Assembly (NCBI RefSeq): GCF_001675285.1
Contig: NZ_LSGQ01000030.1
Location: forward strand, 186,001 to 250,000
Direction of reading: 5' to 3'
From: Elizabethkingia miricola
Lineage (GTDB): Bacteria; Bacteroidota; Bacteroidia; Flavobacteriales; Weeksellaceae
Length of the DNA: 64,000 nt
The notes beneath the pieces are model-generated. The model was not told where the DNA came from, ran no database searches, and worked only from the letters and a program-made list of their open reading frames with translations. Positions 1,283 to 12,194 of the stretch are shown in pieces (positions within the stretch are counted from its first letter, which is position 1; the number at the start of each line of letters is the position of its first letter). Position numbers and translations under genes: made by a program.

Positions 1283-2875
1283 TTATAAAACCACCACTGT
1301 TAATTCAGGGTGGGCAACTTCGATATTCTCGTAACAAGTATTAAGCCAGTCGCGTCCATTTTCAGCATAGAAGTTACTAAAATTAATTTTACGTTCCTGC
1401 CATACTCCGGCAGGGTTTACTACTTCATATAACTGGTTGTATCGCTGATAGAGATCTGCCTGTACAATCTTTTCTGCACGAAGCAATCTTTTATGCATTC
1501 TTTCAAAAGATTTAAGCTGACGGACTTCTTCTGCTGCTACAAGGTTACCAAATGTTTTATCGGTTGTTTCAGCTTGCTTTTTCAGCTCGCTGAACATAGA
1601 TTTAATATTTTCTTCTTTTTCTTCCAGCAATGGCTGCAGAGATGTTTTCCCGAGCAGTTTACTATGAACAACTTCCTGATAATTTCCAAAGAAGTCTTCT
1701 ACACATAAGTCCAGTTTTTGAATCTTACGAAGTGTTTTTTCTGTGATAAAGGCCAGTGAATTTCTGGGTACTAAAATCGGAAACTCTACATCTATTGCTT
1801 CAAAGAATTTCTTAAGTTCCAGCCAGTACATAATCTCTGCATTTCCACCTATATAAATAATATTAGGCAAAACAGTTTCCTGATATACTGGTCTCAGAAC
1901 TGCATTTGGGCTAAACCGCTGAGGATTAGTATTCAGTTCTGCTAATATTTCTTCTTCACTAAAACTAATCTCTGTATCTACAACATGATAAGATTCACTA
2001 GTCTTTTCAATCCTGTCTCTGGACTCATCTCTAAGATAAAAGAGGTTTATTTCCCTTGGATTAACCTGAACCTTACCATATTTATTGATCAGAACATCAA
2101 CAGTTTCTTTAGAGTTCTCATAAAGACTATTTTCCAGCAGTTCTTTTCTGAAAACCGGAGCCGCCAATGCTTTTAGTTTCTTATCATCTCCATTAAGGAT
2201 AAGCAATCCTGAATCTCCAAAAATTCGGTTAACCAAAATTCTTGTAGCAAGGGTTAGCGATCTCCCTTCCTGATATGCCTCCTTTGCCCAGCGGACTAAT
2301 TCGGTTCCGTATGTGAAATCTTTAAATTCTTTTTCAAAAACATCCAGGAAAGAAAGATCAGAGGACTTGATCCGCCCTACTGCTCCACCTGATTTTTCCT
2401 GAATCTGATAGAAATTTCCTTCTGTTTTAAAATGGTTAATTTCATCAAAATCATGGTCTTCTGTTGCCATCCAGAATACCGGAACGAAGTTTTTCCCTTC
2501 ATTATTCTCATTCAGGTATTTGGCGGTTTTTATCGTCTGAAGAATTTTATAGATAAAGAATACCGGCCCGGTAAATAAGTTTAGCTGGTGTCCCGTGGTT
2601 ACAGTAAAAGTATTCTCCTTACGCAATAGCTCGATATTCTGCATCTGCTTGGCACTAATAGCTATATTTCGCATCTGCTTTGTCAGAACCTCTGTAAGAA
2701 CTTCTCTGTGCCCTGAAGGATAGTTTCTTGATTTTTTATTTGCCTGTGCTAAGGCATTATCTTTACTGAATTGTAATCCGTGGTACGCTGAAAGATTACC
2801 ATCCAGGTAATCCTTCAACATTTCAGGAATGCTTGGTATATCCCTGAAATCAATATTAAAACGACAATCTGCCAT
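1283..2875 (-). CDS. bshC: Bacillithiol biosynthesis cysteine-adding enzyme BshC
   Basis: A 530-residue protein that matches BshC in length and motifs. BshC is assigned to the last step of bacillithiol synthesis, adding cysteine to glucosaminyl-malate. The N-terminal half holds the family signature TVTTGHQLNLFTGP near residue 92, then FFIYKILQTIKTA and VFWMATEDHDFDEINHF, all part of the Rossmann-like core. The C-terminal third is rich in charged helices and fits the coiled-coil dimer domain of the family. There is no signal peptide, so it is cytosolic. bshA and bshB are not in this window. It follows the porin gene by 9 bp and precedes the LysM gene, so read-through from the porin gene is possible. 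Confidence 0.95.
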   Translation of the reverse strand: MADCRFNIDFRDIPSIPEMLKDYLDGNLSAYHGLQFSKDNALAQANKKSRNYPSGHREVLTEVLTKQMRNIAISAKQMQNIELLRKENTFTVTTGHQLNLFTGPVFFIYKILQTIKTAKYLNENNEGKNFVPVFWMATEDHDFDEINHFKTEGNFYQIQEKSGGAVGRIKSSDLSFLDVFEKEFKDFTYGTELVRWAKEAYQEGRSLTLATRILVNRIFGDSGLLILNGDDKKLKALAAPVFRKELLENSLYENSKETVDVLINKYGKVQVNPREINLFYLRDESRDRIEKTSESYHVVDTEISFSEEEILAELNTNPQRFSPNAVLRPVYQETVLPNIIYIGGNAEIMYWLELKKFFEAIDVEFPILVPRNSLAFITEKTLRKIQKLDLCVEDFFGNYQEVVHSKLLGKTSLQPLLEEKEENIKSMFSELKKQAETTDKTFGNLVAAEEVRQLKSFERMHKRLLRAEKIVQADLYQRYNQLYEVVNPAGVWQERKINFSNFYAENGRDWLNTCYENIEVAHPELTVVVL

Positions 2876-2879
2876 TCTT

Positions 2880-2887
2880 CAAATTTA
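2880..2887 (-). promoter_or_regulatory. Candidate -7 box just before bshC
   Basis: Minus-strand TAAATTTG fits TAnnTTTG and ends only 4 nt before the bshC ATG. It overlaps the TAA stop of the porin gene. If used, it would give a leaderless or nearly leaderless bshC mRNA. A TTTG at 2912-2915 lies 24 bp upstream, slightly beyond the usual -33 spacing, so this may be a chance match. Confidence 0.3.
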
Positions 2888-4825
2888 TGAAAAAATATAC
2901 CAAACTATACCCAAATTAAGCCTGAAATCGGCAACCGGATAATATGGTGCAGCAAAACCTTTGTTCCCTGATATTGTTGTATTAATCTGCTGTCCTTCTA
3001 TAAAGAACATCATGGTTTTTACTTTCAGATTAATATACAGGTCCATCATTGGTTTTCCACCGATAGAATAACCTGATGTTGCGCTTGGCAGCACAAACTC
3101 GTTAAGTACCGGGAAAAACTCTCTGGAAGCAAATTTACTGAAGTAATATGCTTTAACCCCTGCCTGAACTTCAGCCGCATCTTTGAATACTTTGGACTGG
3201 AAATATACATTTGCACGTCCAACAAAGCCTGGCATTGGCATAAGGTCTTTGTTATTAATTGCAGACTGGAATAATACTCTTCCGTTCAGATGGAATTTTC
3301 CATATTTAAAAGTTGCATCCCCTCCGGCCTGAGTAATATTAATGGATGAAGTTGACTGCTGCATTTGCTTATTAGCATCAATATAGGCATAGTTTCCAAT
3401 ACTGAAATAGTTAAGAAACGCTGATGCATCAAACCATTTTAGTCTTACAATACCTCCGGCTTCTAAAACACTCTGGTTTTTGAAACCTAAATTAACATAA
3501 TTGAAGTTTCTATATTGAGATCCGTTCAATAGCAAGTTAAATGATGGTGCTCCGGACTGGAAGTTTAGTTTTCCCTCTACAGCAAAACCTTCGGCAGGAA
3601 TAAAGGAAACTTTGTTATTGATACGAATAAAATTCCCGAACGTACTTCCTGTAGTATATTCTGCGGACGAATTAAGGTCGAATCTGTTCCATAGTTTAAC
3701 CTGTAAATTTCCTTCTACTCCTATTCTATTCTCTTTCCAAACAGTATTATTATCTACAACATTATTCGGCAGGAAGATCTGATTAGTCCCCAGAATTACA
3801 TTCTGATATTTCAGTCCGGCATCCAATTTAAATTTCTCTCTATCAAAAACCAAGCTTACAACATTCGTCAGCTTTTTAGAATATTTCTTTGTCGATGGTA
3901 AAAAACCACTGATAATATCTGCTGCATTAGTTGTGTAATAACTTTCCGCTCCGTTCTGAGCATAATAGTATTTATTCCCCTCATGCATCAACATATGTCT
4001 GATCTTTAGAGGAAAGGCATCATTGATTCTGAATAAACCAAAATCATGACTTAGGTAATACCTTCTGTAAGAAAAGAAACTTTCTGTATTATTAAGGTTA
4101 ACCTCCATGTTCAGCCTGTTATTAAAACGGGAATCCCCACCTAAAAACTGATCTAAAGTTTTGATACCACCGTTTTCTTCATTATTCACATTCTGATTAA
4201 GGTAATGTGCATAGAGTTCGTAGCGTCCTGTTTTATTCTTGTAGTGTGCTCCGGCATTAAAGTTATTGCTTGCTGAAAGGTTTCTCTGATAGATCCCCTT
4301 AGCACGCAATCCCATATAATTAACAAAGAAGTTAAAGTCTTTCCCTATATTTTGGGTATAAGTAGAGCTTAGTACATTTCCGCTTCCAGGAGCTGTATGG
4401 TATATAAATGTAGTTGTAGGTGTTTTTACATCATAGTATTTAATATCATCTACACCTAATATACTAAAGGATTTTCCTGTTGGTAATACAGCAAGATTCT
4501 GCTGAAGATTAGTTTCGTATACTAATGGATTAAAAGTCTGTCCGGAGTTAGCAAACTGAACTTTTCCAAAGTTGTCTTTGTTATTATACTGTGAAAAGAT
4601 ATATGTTTTTTCATGTGAAAAAACCGTATCAAATATCTTTGCTTCCCCTCTCTGCGTTTTGAATTTATAGTCGCTAATTACAGGTTTAAAGATTTTCATA
4701 GAATCTTTTTTACCATTATCTACAATAACAGAATCTTCTGCAATCCTATTATTATCAGTCTTATTAACAACCTGTGCCGATATCGTTCCCGACACCAAAA
4801 CTACCCATAAAAAAAAGTACCTCAT
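2885..4825 (-). CDS. Putative outer-membrane beta-barrel porin (Porin_10-like)
   Basis: A 646-residue protein with a signal peptide (residues 1-17, ending TISAQ) and a long series of alternating polar and hydrophobic strands rich in aromatic and Asn residues. It ends in VWYIFS, compatible with a beta-barrel insertion signal. Length and layout fit the putative porin family common in Flavobacteriia, PF14121-like; I infer this from flavour, and substrate is unknown. An N-terminal extension of about 60 residues with a run of Asp and Lys precedes the barrel. The start codon at 4825 sits inside a terminator hairpin (see 4809-4843), and a -7 box at 4843-4850 supports this start. Confidence 0.8.
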   Translation of the reverse strand: MRYFFLWVVLVSGTISAQVVNKTDNNRIAEDSVIVDNGKKDSMKIFKPVISDYKFKTQRGEAKIFDTVFSHEKTYIFSQYNNKDNFGKVQFANSGQTFNPLVYETNLQQNLAVLPTGKSFSILGVDDIKYYDVKTPTTTFIYHTAPGSGNVLSSTYTQNIGKDFNFFVNYMGLRAKGIYQRNLSASNNFNAGAHYKNKTGRYELYAHYLNQNVNNEENGGIKTLDQFLGGDSRFNNRLNMEVNLNNTESFFSYRRYYLSHDFGLFRINDAFPLKIRHMLMHEGNKYYYAQNGAESYYTTNAADIISGFLPSTKKYSKKLTNVVSLVFDREKFKLDAGLKYQNVILGTNQIFLPNNVVDNNTVWKENRIGVEGNLQVKLWNRFDLNSSAEYTTGSTFGNFIRINNKVSFIPAEGFAVEGKLNFQSGAPSFNLLLNGSQYRNFNYVNLGFKNQSVLEAGGIVRLKWFDASAFLNYFSIGNYAYIDANKQMQQSTSSINITQAGGDATFKYGKFHLNGRVLFQSAINNKDLMPMPGFVGRANVYFQSKVFKDAAEVQAGVKAYYFSKFASREFFPVLNEFVLPSATSGYSIGGKPMMDLYINLKVKTMMFFIEGQQINTTISGNKGFAAPYYPVADFRLNLGIVWYIFS

Positions 4826-4843
4826 CTTGTTGGAATGAGGTAC
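4809..4843 (-). terminator. Terminator of SusCD operon A that overlaps the porin start codon
   Basis: A perfect 9-bp stem, GTACCTCAT (4817-4825) with ATGAGGTAC (4835-4843), encloses a 9-nt loop. On the minus strand it is followed by eight T residues (4816-4809). This is a standard Rho-independent terminator for transcripts arriving from the susD gene ending at 5030. The distal stem arm begins with the ATG of the porin gene and the T-run forms its Phe and Leu codons. Confidence 0.75.
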
Positions 4844-4850
4844 AAAAGTA
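4843..4850 (-). promoter_or_regulatory. -7 box for the porin gene
   Basis: Minus-strand TACTTTTG matches TAnnTTTG 17 bp before the ATG at 4825. Its last base is the first base of the terminator stem, so a transcript begun from it would start inside the proximal arm of the hairpin. No convincing -33 box was seen. Confidence 0.45.
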
Positions 4851-5029: not shown

Positions 5030-6460
5030 TTATCTGTTATTATTTATATCTTTAGGAATATTGGGATTTGCATCAATTTCTGATTGTGGAATTTTCAGAA
5101 AGAAGCGCTTATCATCTGGTAACATCGGATTATTTGTCAGGTTAACTCTATGCCAGATATCTCTTGAAAGCCCTCTTCTCAATCTTTTAGCATCATACCA
5201 TTCCACTCCTATTTCTCCGTACAGCTCCTTTTTCCGTTCTGTCAAAATTTCTTCATATAGTGCTACTCCTGCGTTTGATGACTTCACAGCCTGAGCATCT
5301 CTATTCTTTTGTAGTTTGTATAACAAGCTATGAGCTCCACTCTCATCTCCTTGTTTATACATTGCCTCGGCCTCGATCAAAATCATCTCAGGAGTTCTCA
5401 TTAAAACCAAATGGGAGGTAAAAGCAAATTTAAATTTTCTGGTATACCATTCTCTGTAATCCGTAATCCCAGCACCAGTTTTAAAAAATTGATTCCGAAC
5501 ATCGCTTGGAGAGAAAAGCGCTACAAAGGACTTATTGATAAAGGTATTATTGTAAGCACTCTCCGTTCGGGTATAAAAGGCATGTGGTGCCAGCCAATAA
5601 TAACTGGATTGATCTGCTTGCTGCGGATCTGCCAGCAACCATTCATTACCTCTATTCATATCATCAAAACCTGATGCATAAAATTGAGGACTTAGGACTA
5701 CATCTACATTTCCTCCGTATGCTTTATTAGCATATTCCTGGGCTTTAGGCCAATTGCCCATCACCTGATATACTCTGGCAGCTGTACCATATGAAACCGC
5801 TTTACTGAAATAAGACCTGTTATCTCTATTTAATGAACCAATAGCAATAGCCCTTTCCAAATCATCCGTAATTAATTTATACATATCCTTCATCGTACTC
5901 ATTGGCTGACCTGCTGTAGCATTCGATTTTGTATATATCGGTGGAGCTTGCAGATTAGGGTCATAAGTATAAGTATGCTGAAACTCTAAACTAAGTTCAA
6001 AATAAAAATAGGCTCTCATGGTATAAGCTTGTCCTAATAATATTTTCTTATTATCTTCTGATATAGCCGTACTTGTCTCCACACCTTCAATAAATGAGTT
6101 CACCTGATTAATAAGATAATATGGGAAATTCCAGCTGAATTGTGACCTGTTAGAGTTTGGCTCTCTAAAATTATTTTCATAATCATTTCTGAACCAACTA
6201 CCACTAAGTGCACTGATATTCCCCTTCACCTCTCTGGCAAAATACATAGAACCCAGATTTCCGTTTTCGGTATTTAAAAACTGACCTCTGGTTCGTCTTA
6301 ATATCCCTGCAATGTGAGCTTTGGCTCCTTCATATGATCCATATACCACATCCGGAGACACAACATCTGTTGGTTTAGGTTCATTCAGGTATTCTTCGCT
6401 ACAAGATAACATGGTAACGAAAAGTCCAATAATCGCTATTATATGTCTAATATTTTTCAT
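5030..6460 (-). CDS. SusD/RagB family nutrient-binding lipoprotein, locus A
   Basis: A 476-residue lipoprotein. The signal ends in LSC with Cys20, followed by SEE, which fits the Bacteroidota lipoprotein export signal for surface display. The SusD core shows the usual features: GQAYTMRAYFYFELS at about residues 145-160 (TPR helix), ATAARVYQVMGNW, RTPEMILIEAEAMYKQGD, and the C-terminal ELYGEIGVEWYDAKRLRRG segment. SusD proteins cap their SusC partner and deliver ligand to it. Its partner is the susC 11 bp upstream (6472-9399). The ligand cannot be deduced because no enzyme genes accompany it. Confidence 0.95.
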   Translation of the reverse strand: MKNIRHIIAIIGLFVTMLSCSEEYLNEPKPTDVVSPDVVYGSYEGAKAHIAGILRRTRGQFLNTENGNLGSMYFAREVKGNISALSGSWFRNDYENNFREPNSNRSQFSWNFPYYLINQVNSFIEGVETSTAISEDNKKILLGQAYTMRAYFYFELSLEFQHTYTYDPNLQAPPIYTKSNATAGQPMSTMKDMYKLITDDLERAIAIGSLNRDNRSYFSKAVSYGTAARVYQVMGNWPKAQEYANKAYGGNVDVVLSPQFYASGFDDMNRGNEWLLADPQQADQSSYYWLAPHAFYTRTESAYNNTFINKSFVALFSPSDVRNQFFKTGAGITDYREWYTRKFKFAFTSHLVLMRTPEMILIEAEAMYKQGDESGAHSLLYKLQKNRDAQAVKSSNAGVALYEEILTERKKELYGEIGVEWYDAKRLRRGLSRDIWHRVNLTNNPMLPDDKRFFLKIPQSEIDANPNIPKDINNNR

Positions 6461-6471
6461 TGTTTTTTATT

Positions 6472-9399
6472 TTAAAATCCTATACTAAATCCTAAAGAAA
6501 TGGTTCTTAAATTATATGATCTACTGTTTGTTGTCCCTGCCAAGCTTTGCTCCGGATCAATTCCTTTGTGACTCTGCCACGTCCATACATTATCTCCCTG
6601 TAGAAAAATTCTCATACTAGACACCCCCATTTTCCCAAGTAAATCTTCACTTACATTATACCCAAGCGTTAACGATTTTAGTCTTATAAAGTCGTTCTTA
6701 AACAAAAACCTTGAGGAGAGTGCATTATTTTGATTATTAGCCATGATATTAATGGGCACATCTGTAATATCTCCAGGCTTTTGCCATGCATTCTTTACAT
6801 CCACAGACTGTTGATTTCCGGGCGATGAGAATCCCGACATTAATGATGCATAGGAAGAATCATATATATAAGATCCAAATGAAAAGTTAAACAACACATT
6901 CAAATCGAAACTTCCGTATTTGAAAGAATTGGTAAAGCCACCTCTGAATTTAGGCAAAGAGCTTCCCATATACCTTTTACTAGCTTCTGCATTAGCCAAA
7001 TTATAATTGGCAGTTTTCTCTCTTGTCATATTTCCTTGTGCATCTTTCTTATCATACCACCAAGTACCCATTCCGGTATCAGCATCAACTCCCGCCCATT
7101 CGACCAAAAAGAAATCATACAACGACGAACCAACTTCCCACCTCTTGGTTCCATTGATAAATGATTCCTGAGTAAGTTTTGTTATTTTATTTTTTTCAAA
7201 TGTGAGATTAAGACTTGTTCTCCACTGGAATTTATCAGAACTGATATTTAATGAGGAAATATCGAATTCCCATCCAGAATTCCTCAGCGCTCCTACATTA
7301 GTTGTAATAGAAGTATTTCCGGTAGAGCCTGGTAAAGGCTTAGCATATATTAAGTCTATAGATCTTTTGTTAAAGTAATCTACATTTACCGTTATTCGGT
7401 TTTTTAAAAGGCCCATTTCTGCACCTGCATTTAAGGAAGCAGTCTTCTCCCATGTAAGAAAATAGTCTCTTGCCCCACCCAATAAAACACCTGTTTGCCC
7501 AAGTTGATTCCAACCCGTTGCAAAGGACATCATGTAAGGAAAATATCCATCCGTTCCATTATTCCCTAATTCTCCATAAGAAGATTTAAGCTTTAAGTAA
7601 TTGACAATCTTATTTTTGAAAAAATTTTCCTGACTAACAACCCAGGCTCCTCCTACAGAATAAAAAGTTCCCCACCTGACCTCAGAGGCAAATCTTGTTG
7701 AACCATCATTTCTGACGGATCCTTCAATAAAATATTTATTGGCATAATTATATCCTAGTCGTCCCAAATAACCTACCAGTCTTTCCTGATTAATATACCC
7801 TCCAACTCCCTCTGAAACCGTTTTCCCATTTAAAACATATACTTCTGGTAAAAACCCTGTTCCCTGTGCACTAAGAGCATCATATCTATAATCCATCAAC
7901 TCAAATATGGCTTGGGCATTAACATTATGCTTCCCAAAACTTTTATTGAAGTCTAAACTATTTGTCCAGTTTATGGTTTTCACCAAATCCCTGCTTTGAG
8001 AAACTCTTCCCTTTACACTTGCAGCAGCTCCATAAGCATAATGTGTATAAGAGTAACTATCATAATTATATAACTGAAATGATCCCTGAGATCTTAGCTT
8101 TAGATAATCTGTAAGGGTAACTTCTGCATATCCGTTAATAAAGGTATCATATCTGTTATACCGGATTTTATTATTATATAATGCTCCAAGAGCATTTTCA
8201 TTTGCCAGCAAAGGACGCTGTGCATTTACTGGTCTCCCCGAAACAGCATTATCTCCATAATCGTATTGTGATCTGCCAAAAGCATCTAAAATAATATTCC
8301 CTTTTTCATCTCTCATATAAACAGGATAAATACCCGACAAAGTATAAACCCATTGTATTGGACTTTGAAATGCACTTCCTGATTGCATTGGATAATTTTG
8401 AGAAGATGCACTAAATGACGTATTCAATCCTACCTTCAGCCATGTATTAACTTTTGAGTCAACATTAGCCCTGAAACCTAAACGCTCAAATCTTGACGTT
8501 TTAATATTCCCATACATATCCAGATAATCTGCACCTATAAAATAGGTTGTATTCTCACTACCCCCTGAAATATTCAGTCTGTGTTCCTGCTTGAGAGCTG
8601 AATTATTGATAAGCTCTTTTTCCCAATCAGTATCCCATAACAATTTAGCATCAGCTATGACATTACCTTTATTATCAATAGGATTGACAACATTATAGAG
8701 ATTATACCCTAATGTATTTATTATATTATTTGTAGCATATTGTGCAGCCGCATCTGGCGTTTGTCCATTACTCACAATTCTTGCATTTCTTATTGCTTGC
8801 CAGGTATATTTCATGAAGTCTTCTGCCTTAAGTACTTCATGAAATTTCACTGCCGATGAAGAGACCCCGATTAAAGAAGTAACATTAACTTTAGGCTTCG
8901 CATTGAGCCTTCCTTTTTTAGTCGTTATAATAATAACACCATTAGCACCTCTTGATCCATACAAAGCAGTAGCAGATGCATCCTTCAGCACGCTCATTGA
9001 CTCTACCTGATCTTGTGGAATAGAGTTGATATTTCCACCATAAGGTGACCCGTCTACAATAATTAAAGGTTGAGTACTAGCATTAATGGATGAAACCCCT
9101 CTTATATAAATAGAAGGATTATCACCAGGCATACCGCCTGCGGCTATTACATTCACACCTGTTACAGTTCCCTGAAGTGCTCCCAAAATACTTGTTGCTT
9201 GCTGGGTTTCAATTATTCTTTTATCAACAGTTGCTACAGAACCTACTATTGCCTCTTTCTTTTGTTTGCCAAAGGCTACAACTACAACTTCTTCTATATC
9301 TTTAATGGAAGTTGTATCCGGTTTTCTCTTTTGTGCCAGCAGTCCTTGTCCTATAAAAAACAGAACACCTACACTAAGCATGTGTAATTTTACTTTCAT
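6472..9399 (-). CDS. SusC/RagA family TonB-linked outer-membrane transporter, locus A
   Basis: A 975-residue TonB-dependent transporter. A signal peptide (about 1-23) is followed within 15 residues by the TonB box region EEVVVVAFG, then the plug domain with IYIRGVSSINAS, PLIIVDGSPYGG and the SusC hallmark GSRGANGVIIITTKKG near residue 150. The rest is the 22-strand barrel, ending in SLGFSIGF with a terminal Phe. The N-terminal carboxypeptidase-regulatory-like domain found in many SusC proteins is absent. It forms an operon with the susD 11 bp downstream. Its signal peptide resembles those of the other four SusC proteins here, but its 5' flank lacks the motif shared by loci C, D and E. Confidence 0.95.
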   Translation of the reverse strand: MKVKLHMLSVGVLFFIGQGLLAQKRKPDTTSIKDIEEVVVVAFGKQKKEAIVGSVATVDKRIIETQQATSILGALQGTVTGVNVIAAGGMPGDNPSIYIRGVSSINASTQPLIIVDGSPYGGNINSIPQDQVESMSVLKDASATALYGSRGANGVIIITTKKGRLNAKPKVNVTSLIGVSSSAVKFHEVLKAEDFMKYTWQAIRNARIVSNGQTPDAAAQYATNNIINTLGYNLYNVVNPIDNKGNVIADAKLLWDTDWEKELINNSALKQEHRLNISGGSENTTYFIGADYLDMYGNIKTSRFERLGFRANVDSKVNTWLKVGLNTSFSASSQNYPMQSGSAFQSPIQWVYTLSGIYPVYMRDEKGNIILDAFGRSQYDYGDNAVSGRPVNAQRPLLANENALGALYNNKIRYNRYDTFINGYAEVTLTDYLKLRSQGSFQLYNYDSYSYTHYAYGAAASVKGRVSQSRDLVKTINWTNSLDFNKSFGKHNVNAQAIFELMDYRYDALSAQGTGFLPEVYVLNGKTVSEGVGGYINQERLVGYLGRLGYNYANKYFIEGSVRNDGSTRFASEVRWGTFYSVGGAWVVSQENFFKNKIVNYLKLKSSYGELGNNGTDGYFPYMMSFATGWNQLGQTGVLLGGARDYFLTWEKTASLNAGAEMGLLKNRITVNVDYFNKRSIDLIYAKPLPGSTGNTSITTNVGALRNSGWEFDISSLNISSDKFQWRTSLNLTFEKNKITKLTQESFINGTKRWEVGSSLYDFFLVEWAGVDADTGMGTWWYDKKDAQGNMTREKTANYNLANAEASKRYMGSSLPKFRGGFTNSFKYGSFDLNVLFNFSFGSYIYDSSYASLMSGFSSPGNQQSVDVKNAWQKPGDITDVPINIMANNQNNALSSRFLFKNDFIRLKSLTLGYNVSEDLLGKMGVSSMRIFLQGDNVWTWQSHKGIDPEQSLAGTTNSRSYNLRTISLGFSIGF

Positions 9400-10748: not shown

Positions 10749-12194
10749 TTACTGGTCCCACCAAACTTTGGCCTTAAGGGACTCGAATGGGACAGGTATC
10801 CCCGGTCCATTTTGTAATGAACTTGTATTGACATTAATCTCTATCTGCGGATAGGAAAGCCTTCTTGGAATCGTATTACCCGTCATATTGAATGATGGCA
10901 TGGTCGTAAAGACCGGAAATCCTGTTCTTCTCCAATCTACCCAGGATTCGTAAGCTCCCTGAAACATTGTAATCCATTTCTGTTCCATAATCCTTCCCAG
11001 TGAGTTGTTATAAGCCACTTTTGAACTTCCAATATATGCTGATGCTTTATTTGCAATTCCCAAAGCTGTAAAATCCTGTGTAATCGCAGCCACATAAGAT
11101 TCTTTGGATTTAACATTATTACCGGATCTAAAATAGATCTCTGATTTTATAAAATTTACTTCAGCCGCGCTCATTAATACTACAGGAGAATCTGTAGACG
11201 CATAAGCAGATCCTACTCTGGAAAACAAATTTTCACCGGAATCATCAGTATCCTGCCCTGGAACATTCCCTCTATATTGCCCCTGAAATCCTGCTCCATT
11301 ATTTACTACTTTCTTAAAATACACATCTATTCTCGGATCATTTAATAATTTCATTTTATCAACAATCGTAGAGGCTACAGCATTATCTTTTCTACCGGAT
11401 AGAACATCAAACTGATAAATGGGATTTGCATTAGATGCAGCTGTTCCGAACTTTACCGTTGCATTGGTATCATAGACATCTATTAAAGCAGGGTTAGTCG
11501 CCAAAAATGCAGCTGATTCCCCAGGGCTTCTCTTACTCAAATGATTAAGTAATCTTAGCTTTAATGAATTTGCAAACCTAATCCAGCTATCTGTATTTCC
11601 GTTATAGATAACATCATCAGTCCCAGGCTTCATACCTGTCAAAGAATTAATATTAACAATTCCGTCTTCTATCATCTTTATTAATGCCGGATATATAGTT
11701 TCCTGTTTATCATATGCTGGTGTAATATTCCCAGTCCCCTGCAATGCCGTGGAAAAAGGGATATCTCCAAAAACATCCGTTGTGACACTAAATACATAAG
11801 CCTGTAATACCTGAGAAATACCCACATAAATCCGATCTCCATCTGTAGTTCCTTTATTCTGAATTTCTTTCAGATCCATTAAAGCATCATAAACATTTCT
11901 CCAAAGCCCGTCTGCAGAAGAAGACGTTATATTATATCTCGAATAGTCCAGTGGCTGCCCTCTATGTCCACCATAATACTGAACAATGCTTGCAGGCATC
12001 CTTGTTGCCTCCCCTCCCATAATATATCCCATATTAACCTGAGAAGAAGTAAGCAAAGTATAAATTGGTACATTCGTAGGATTATTAGGATCTTTATTTA
12101 TATCCAATTCCTGGCGGCAGGATTGTATTACTGTAAGAGATAATACTCCTAAAGTAAAAATAAAATATCTGAAAGTATTATTTATTATTCTCAT
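10749..12194 (-). CDS. SusD-like lipoprotein of the SusD/RagB-like 2 type, locus B
   Basis: The start is taken at the ATG at 12194, giving 481 residues with a clean lipoprotein signal ending in Cys26 (VIQSC); the open frame extends further upstream but that part overlaps the 3' end of susC. The protein differs from the four other SusD proteins in the window and looks like the second SusD-like family (PF12771): DINKDPNNPTNVP after the lipid anchor, then YALMDLKEIQNKG-type and SVTTDVFGDIPFS motifs near residue 150, and GAYESWVDWRRTGFP near the C-terminus. It should act as the surface lid of the locus B SusC, 11 bp upstream. Proteins of this subtype often pair with transporters for peptides or other non-starch ligands, so the substrate may not be a glycan. 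Confidence 0.92.
   Translation of the reverse strand: MRIINNTFRYFIFTLGVLSLTVIQSCRQELDINKDPNNPTNVPIYTLLTSSQVNMGYIMGGEATRMPASIVQYYGGHRGQPLDYSRYNITSSSADGLWRNVYDALMDLKEIQNKGTTDGDRIYVGISQVLQAYVFSVTTDVFGDIPFSTALQGTGNITPAYDKQETIYPALIKMIEDGIVNINSLTGMKPGTDDVIYNGNTDSWIRFANSLKLRLLNHLSKRSPGESAAFLATNPALIDVYDTNATVKFGTAASNANPIYQFDVLSGRKDNAVASTIVDKMKLLNDPRIDVYFKKVVNNGAGFQGQYRGNVPGQDTDDSGENLFSRVGSAYASTDSPVVLMSAAEVNFIKSEIYFRSGNNVKSKESYVAAITQDFTALGIANKASAYIGSSKVAYNNSLGRIMEQKWITMFQGAYESWVDWRRTGFPVFTTMPSFNMTGNTIPRRLSYPQIEINVNTSSLQNGPGIPVPFESLKAKVWWDQ

Follow-up and report, generated by a model that had tools for sequence, protein, structure and literature searches.

The stretch of Elizabethkingia miricola DNA analysed here (the window, 64,000 nucleotides) carries on its minus strand a gene for a Porin_10 protein (2885-4825; PF14121, E 7.6e-117) that lies downstream of a SusCD operon composed of a SusC-type TonB-dependent receptor with a Plug domain (6472-9399, minus strand) and SusD (5030-6460, minus strand; PF14322 and PF07980). 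After the porin gene, 9 bases on, comes bshC for bacillithiol biosynthesis (1283-2875, minus strand; PF10079 and PF24850). A hairpin covers the porin start (4843-4817) on the same strand as SusD, whose stop is at 5030, and is hence downstream of a co-directional transcription unit. Pfam identified no insertion sequence around it, its neighbours being SusC, SusD, the porin and bshC.

Read on the minus strand, the hairpin consists of a proximal arm, GTACCTCAT (4843-4835), nine bases of spacer, and a distal arm, ATGAGGTAC (4825-4817), followed directly by eight T (4816-4809), so that a stable, GC-containing stem runs straight into a U tract in the RNA as in an intrinsic terminator. The proximal arm was recovered by inspection of the sequence, by a terminator scan and by folding, and its exact match recurs in relatives. 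With the porin ATG at 4825, the distal arm reads as the codons ATG AGG TAC (Met-Arg-Tyr) and the T8 tract as TTT TTT TT(A), that is, Phe-Phe and the first two bases of a Leu codon. The -7 promoter element of the porin gene, TACTTTTG (4850-4843, minus strand; consensus TAHHTTTG), ends with a G at 4843 that is also the outermost base of the stem. The initial annotation had placed hairpin, T tract and -7 box exactly here, and was right both that the T8 encodes early Phe/Leu residues of the porin and that the box ends on the outer stem base. Its statement that the distal arm starts exactly at the ATG holds for the 9-base arm but is off by one base if one G-T pair is counted, since the stem then has 10 bp with a 7-nt loop and its distal arm begins one base before the ATG.

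The 61 nt around the hairpin fold at -15.9 kcal/mol, against a mean of -8.6 for shuffled sequences (z -3.2; none of 200 shuffles as good), and the hairpin is the second of 17 terminator-like sites listed for the first 20 kb, where shuffles predict 10.5. Its stem energy of -12.2 is close to the median (-12.35) of 932 terminator-like sites in a 2.0-Mb census of the genus (contig C30 and parts of C32 of the E. miricola genome itself, G000, and 1.17 Mb of genome G004), only 0.5% of which have a run of eight T straight after the stem. Among 371 contig ORFs of at least 250 aa, a T8 tract occurs within the first 10 codons in just two, and AGG and TAC make up 8.8% of Arg and 26.6% of Tyr codons, respectively. 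Rfam at gathering thresholds gave no match in the window. Between the SusD stop (5030) and the porin-start hairpin, the scan detected no other terminator-like site on the minus strand. This SusD gene has no ordinary hairpin soon after its stop, unlike the four other SusD-family genes assigned by Pfam in the window (ends at 10749, 15600, 21062 and 26575), each of which is followed, by eye, by a hairpin and T tract within 90 bases. An ordinary layout is seen just after 21062 (minus strand), where the SusD terminator is followed directly by a TATTTTTG box and an ATG.

Promoter and predicted folding at the porin start

Of the 142 loci for which a porin start was called (duplicates included), 109 have a TAnnTTTG box no more than 40 nt from the ATG, mostly beginning at -24/-25, and TACTTTTG agrees with the primary-promoter consensus of Bacteroidota, TAHHTTTG, at a position conserved in relatives. 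By eye, no -33 TTTG element is evident in the porin promoter of the window; as far as the portion of the F. johnsoniae paper considered here goes, this element is weak there too (PMC6847099). In the corresponding portions of the published maps for two Flavobacterium species, the G of the box is at -5 (PMC6847099, PMC9723704), RNA starts taken as probable in F. johnsoniae being 4-5 nt after the box (PMC6847099) and the box in F. psychrophilum spanning -12 to -5, with 5.5% of the examined mRNAs leaderless (PMC9723704). The literature matches listed include no map of transcription start sites in Elizabethkingia. With the box-to-start spacing given in the F. johnsoniae paper (PMC6847099), the porin mRNA is predicted to begin at 4838 or 4837 (minus strand), inside the proximal arm, with a leader of 12-13 nt. 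It would then lack the outer 5-6 bases of the stem, and the complete hairpin would not be part of its leader if the spacing rule gives the true start.

The claim of a terminator for the upstream operon that is nested with the porin promoter, both arms being present in read-through RNA only, is supported by our comparison, in which the porin start inside the proximal arm is predicted from the published spacing. In the window, the hairpin left in the predicted own RNA has -1.4 kcal/mol compared to -12.2 for the full one, and in the eight strong porin cases that were folded the values are -1.2 to -3.2 compared to -12.0 to -14.0 kcal/mol. The initial annotation had further proposed that the ribosome start is hidden in read-through RNA and free in the porin's own mRNA. 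Predicted accessibility of the ATG bears this out in the window, at 0.01 in read-through RNA and 0.67 in own RNA, and all eight folded cases have the ATG unpaired at just 0.00-0.03 in read-through RNA. In native RNA, however, the ATG is clearly freed only at locus L001 (0.67) and, if transcription starts 6 nt after the box G, at L009 (0.53), whereas five homologues from genus g2 give 0.02-0.16 for a start 5 nt after the box G and 0.11-0.36 for one at 6 nt. At the nucleotidase gene described below, folding often places the ATG in the loop of the hairpin. Hiding of translation as a general principle was hence rejected on the folding of genus g2 and the nucleotidase gene, and in these models the feature shared by the porin and nucleotidase loci would be termination, not translation control.

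Conservation of the porin hairpin and its relation to separate terminators

Scanning 59 genomes for the exact repeat (GTACCTCA-N5..15-TGAGGTAC, with no T tract demanded) yielded one site in each of seven genomes, the E. miricola genome among them, and always at the porin start by coordinates; the reversed control pattern had no match in the 59. All seven sites are followed by at least eight T, and in one of the genomes (genus g15) the porin is only 33% identical. A wider pattern, which did demand seven T, matched 18 of 320 genomes of the family, five of them with poorer stems and 13 with exact arms at the porin start. The stem is therefore kept in related genomes, as the initial annotation had suggested checking, and in four genera: in five of six Elizabethkingia genomes, all six of genus g2, G037 (genus g33), where the site precedes the first aligned porin residue by 17 codons and is in frame with it, and G019 (genus g15). 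The 9-base arms are separated by 4, 8 or 9 bases, depending on the genome, and the end of the box coincides with the stem base in the strong cases. In both G006 and G019, just 34-36 nt lie between SusD stop and porin ATG, free of anything else, which leaves the start hairpin as the only place for a terminator.

Compensatory changes at the porin stem, the other check suggested, were few and not significant (arm permutation, p 0.14) and were found in strength at the nucleotidase gene instead. The strong porin stems cannot provide covariation because their arms are identical in sequence. Two C-G to T-A changes occur in the GTATTTCA/TGAAATAC stems of loci L019, L119 and L120, and L021 has the same weaker stem with a G-U pair (TGAGATAC). 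These four start stems are weak (-4.6 to -6.3), with no full T tract, and are possibly ancestral or decayed forms. A single origin of the porin stem was rejected, given that a tree of 29 porins (of 36 named, the rest being too short or having no start, and with the long L060 branch unsurely placed) needs four changes of the stem trait, at least two of them forced by starred branches. In the slot upstream of the porin (5030-9399 in the window, and in relatives), the SusD C-terminus of G004 differs from those of G000, G002 and G005, which looks as if SusCD cassettes had been exchanged in front of a constant porin.

We compared the start hairpin (counted at -8 kcal/mol or better with a T-rich tail) with separate terminators at 122 distinct porin loci with at least 300 nt upstream; loci with less upstream sequence or identical to another were left out, as were six of 148 with no porin start (L063 is not a porin locus). 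Start hairpins were present with no separate terminator at 10 loci and together with one at a single locus, while 97 had only a separate terminator and 14 had neither. In 10 of the 11 distinct strong cases, the start hairpin is thus the sole terminator-like structure found between the upstream gene and the porin, and 97 of the 111 distinct loci with no start hairpin have a separate terminator (Fisher 1.4e-7, for species that are related and with genus g21 over-represented). These counts did not change when only sites after the upstream stop were taken, and with stems of at least 7 required there were 93 loci with only a separate terminator and 18 with neither. A control scan of ~340 nt of porin coding strand matched at 4 of 73 loci, and at none with stems of at least 7. 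The locus with both structures is that of G001 (L009), which has an ordinary terminator plus the start hairpin. In G003 (L005), placed in the same genus as G000, the stem is broken and a separate terminator lies at -233 to -207. Six of the 14 loci with neither have the upstream gene on the other strand, and the other eight, with a co-directional ORF upstream, are unexplained by a nested terminator. Our scan requires a continuous stem with three GC pairs and a loop of at most 9, and therefore misses terminators that are AT-rich or broken; by eye, L029 has an AT-rich imperfect hairpin before the porin that falls outside these criteria.

A second gene and the genome-wide picture

The strongest support for a nested terminator comes from a gene outside the window. 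In the 2.0-Mb census, a terminator spanning a first ATG and having a -7 box at its stem base occurs twice, once at the porin and once at C30:715290 of G000 (plus strand), where an ECF-type sigma factor gene precedes a gene for a YjjG/YfnB-type pyrimidine nucleotidase (L249:1501-2196; TIGR02254, 178.7 bits, above cut-off). The anatomy is as at the porin, with the box G at the stem base, the stem across the start, and T8. A search with the nucleotidase N-terminus matched 45 of 59 genomes, and 30 loci were examined. The sequence reads TTTG-TGTCT...AGACACA-T8 in Elizabethkingia, TTTG-TGCTT...AAGCACA-T8 in G001, TTTG-TGCTG...CAGCACA-T8 in g21 (Chryseobacterium) and others, and TTTG-TGCCT...AGGCACA-T8 in g9 and g7. 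Its distal arm is a codon for Arg, Lys or Gln plus one for His, and its T8 encodes the Ile-Phe-Phe of the FFDLDNT motif, known as the HAD catalytic motif. For the 12 distinct arm pairs (18 loci), 93 of 96 positions pair, compared to a permutation mean of 78.9 and with none of 20000 permutations as good, in a test that does not remove relatedness.

An ECF-sigma-type gene lies upstream at 20 of the 30 loci (by signature, and by Pfam for L249 only). Eighteen of these have box, stem and T8 (L268 with one mismatch); at the other two, L256 and L269, a separate terminator lies immediately upstream, and L269 keeps the T8. None of the 10 loci in other contexts has a box-anchored stem: six lack a box within 60 nt, and four pair at 3-5 of 8 positions with no mismatch-free run. 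Several of these 10 have a co-directional upstream ORF with no terminator found. A loose family pattern for the nucleotidase matched 206 of 320 genomes, which is an upper bound because chance matches are included (at least 11 among the matches listed). Also among the matches listed, the stem of G099 (genus g12) has a mismatch and folds at -6.7, and folding energies for the other 17 distinct strings are -8.6 to -15.6. A leader of 0-3 nt is predicted for the nucleotidase mRNA at 13 of 18 loci, and one of 12-15 nt in Elizabethkingia and G001; the residual stems in the predicted own RNA are at 0 to -3.1.

In anchored screens, boxes with a hairpin at -12 kcal/mol or better numbered 5 of 2151, two of the five being 5S rRNA ends, compared to 9 of 26472 control TTTG sites; the figures for 390 kb of G006 were 1 of 476 boxes and 1 of 6331 controls. 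Eight of the 932 terminators have the box G between -3 and +1 relative to the stem start, and five have an opposite-strand control box there. A broad genome-wide class was rejected on this weak excess over controls, whose small size points to a rare device at a few places and not to a general rule. Two further sites have a box at the base of a hairpin with no start overlap. At G000:C30:593712 (plus strand), a terminator, GGCCAGCCGGATTCCGGTTGGC, with a long T tract and the -7 box TACTTTTG at its base, lies 94 nt before an ORF that by eye is presumably MsrA-like, and in the first 390 kb of G004:C1 (minus strand, 98775) a box, TATATTTG, abuts a hairpin, TAAAACGATTGCAGCTATTGCAATCGTTTTA, 50 nt before an ORF that we take, also by eye, to be acyltransferase-like.

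Alternative explanations, known systems and meaning

Our preferred reading of the sequence evidence, to which we assign a probability of roughly three in four, is that the hairpin and T8 are the intrinsic terminator of SusCD, folded into the porin promoter and the first porin codons. Polymerase arriving from SusCD would transcribe both arms and the T8 and terminate before the porin, and any remaining read-through RNA would carry the porin start inside the stem. Polymerase from the porin's own -7 box would begin inside the proximal arm, form no full hairpin and pass the T8, as only a weak residual stem would be left to it. One short sequence would then be terminator, promoter and translation start, and probably only transcripts that enter from upstream can form the full terminator, to the exclusion of the gene's own mRNA.

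The overlap of the hairpin with the start codon, and the remaining short stem that still pairs the ATG in own RNA of genus g2, would also suit a structure that regulates the porin's own mRNA, as a leader attenuator or a translational switch. We consider this improbable given that, by the known -7 box spacing, own RNA would lack the outer 5-6 bases of the stem and keep only the weak residual hairpin noted above, and that presence of the hairpin tracks absence of a separate terminator. A palindrome exactly at the promoter, with identical arms in 13 of 320 genomes, might otherwise be a DNA operator bound by a dimeric regulator. This is still less probable and was rejected on the varying arm spacing (4, 8 or 9), which suits an RNA hairpin but not an operator of fixed spacing, and on the single exact site per genome where it is present, which leaves no regulon of exact sites; moreover, T8 followed in all seven genomes found with no T asked for, and the nucleotidase gene has different, covarying sequences. 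The least probable account, to which we give very little credence, is chance: T runs would come from the AT-rich codons of the signal peptide, and the match of Met-Arg-Tyr to the promoter-proximal sequence would be a coincidence. Signal peptides are indeed rich in Phe/Leu, many porin promoters have inherited the sequence TTTGTAnnTCA, and pairing is frequent among permuted arms too (a mean of 4.3 arms with at least 7 of 8 pairs, compared to 6 observed), but the rarity of T8 in early codons (2/371), the uncommon Arg and Tyr codons in the distal arm, recurrence in four genera and the covariation at the nucleotidase gene all argue against it.

The nested terminator that we favour resembles an ordinary Rho-independent terminator in having a stem of typical strength followed by a U tract, rightly placed for SusCD, but differs in that the next gene uses its distal arm and U tract as codons and in that its proximal arm covers the spacer between that gene's -7 box and the predicted transcription start. 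Leader attenuators likewise place a terminator at the start of a gene, but here the two arms would not both lie within the gene's own predicted transcript. In the transposase genes of IS10/IS50 (and IS200), external transcripts fold over the translation start, and the native transcript cannot do so as it starts inside the repeat. A native start inside the repeat is likewise predicted here (4838/4837), but a U tract adds a terminator, the gene encodes a porin or nucleotidase and is chromosomal, and no IS is seen nearby. The box matches the sigma-ABfr promoter, TAHHTTTG, for which the portions of the two papers considered here lead us to expect a start 4-5 nt downstream (PMC6847099, PMC9723704), with the difference that here the box G is at the same time the outermost base of a terminator stem. 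The separate ingredients are known already, terminators as well as the -7 box and read-through protection, and what appears new is their fusion with coding sequence; among the titles and abstract openings listed from the open-licence literature on this arrangement and on IS read-through protection, there is no description of such a fusion of box, terminator and codons.

For the family as a whole, we lean slightly towards the view that Weeksellaceae have recurrent self-excluding terminators, in which -7 box, stem, start codon and coding U tract are fused and which would stop only polymerase from outside; at the YjjG-type gene, the device would be family-wide, with the promoter spacer coevolving with the codon before His-Ile-Phe-Phe-Asp and the native mRNA nearly leaderless. 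At such sites, automatic terminator or start calls can clash, and a sequence of ~40 bases may be on offer as an insulator for engineering of Bacteroidota. The arrangement provides a rule open to testing, namely that the terminator can be made by incoming polymerase alone, and a clear case of noncoding promoter bases and coding bases constraining each other. If read correctly here, it would show that neighbouring operons can be separated without spending intergenic DNA.
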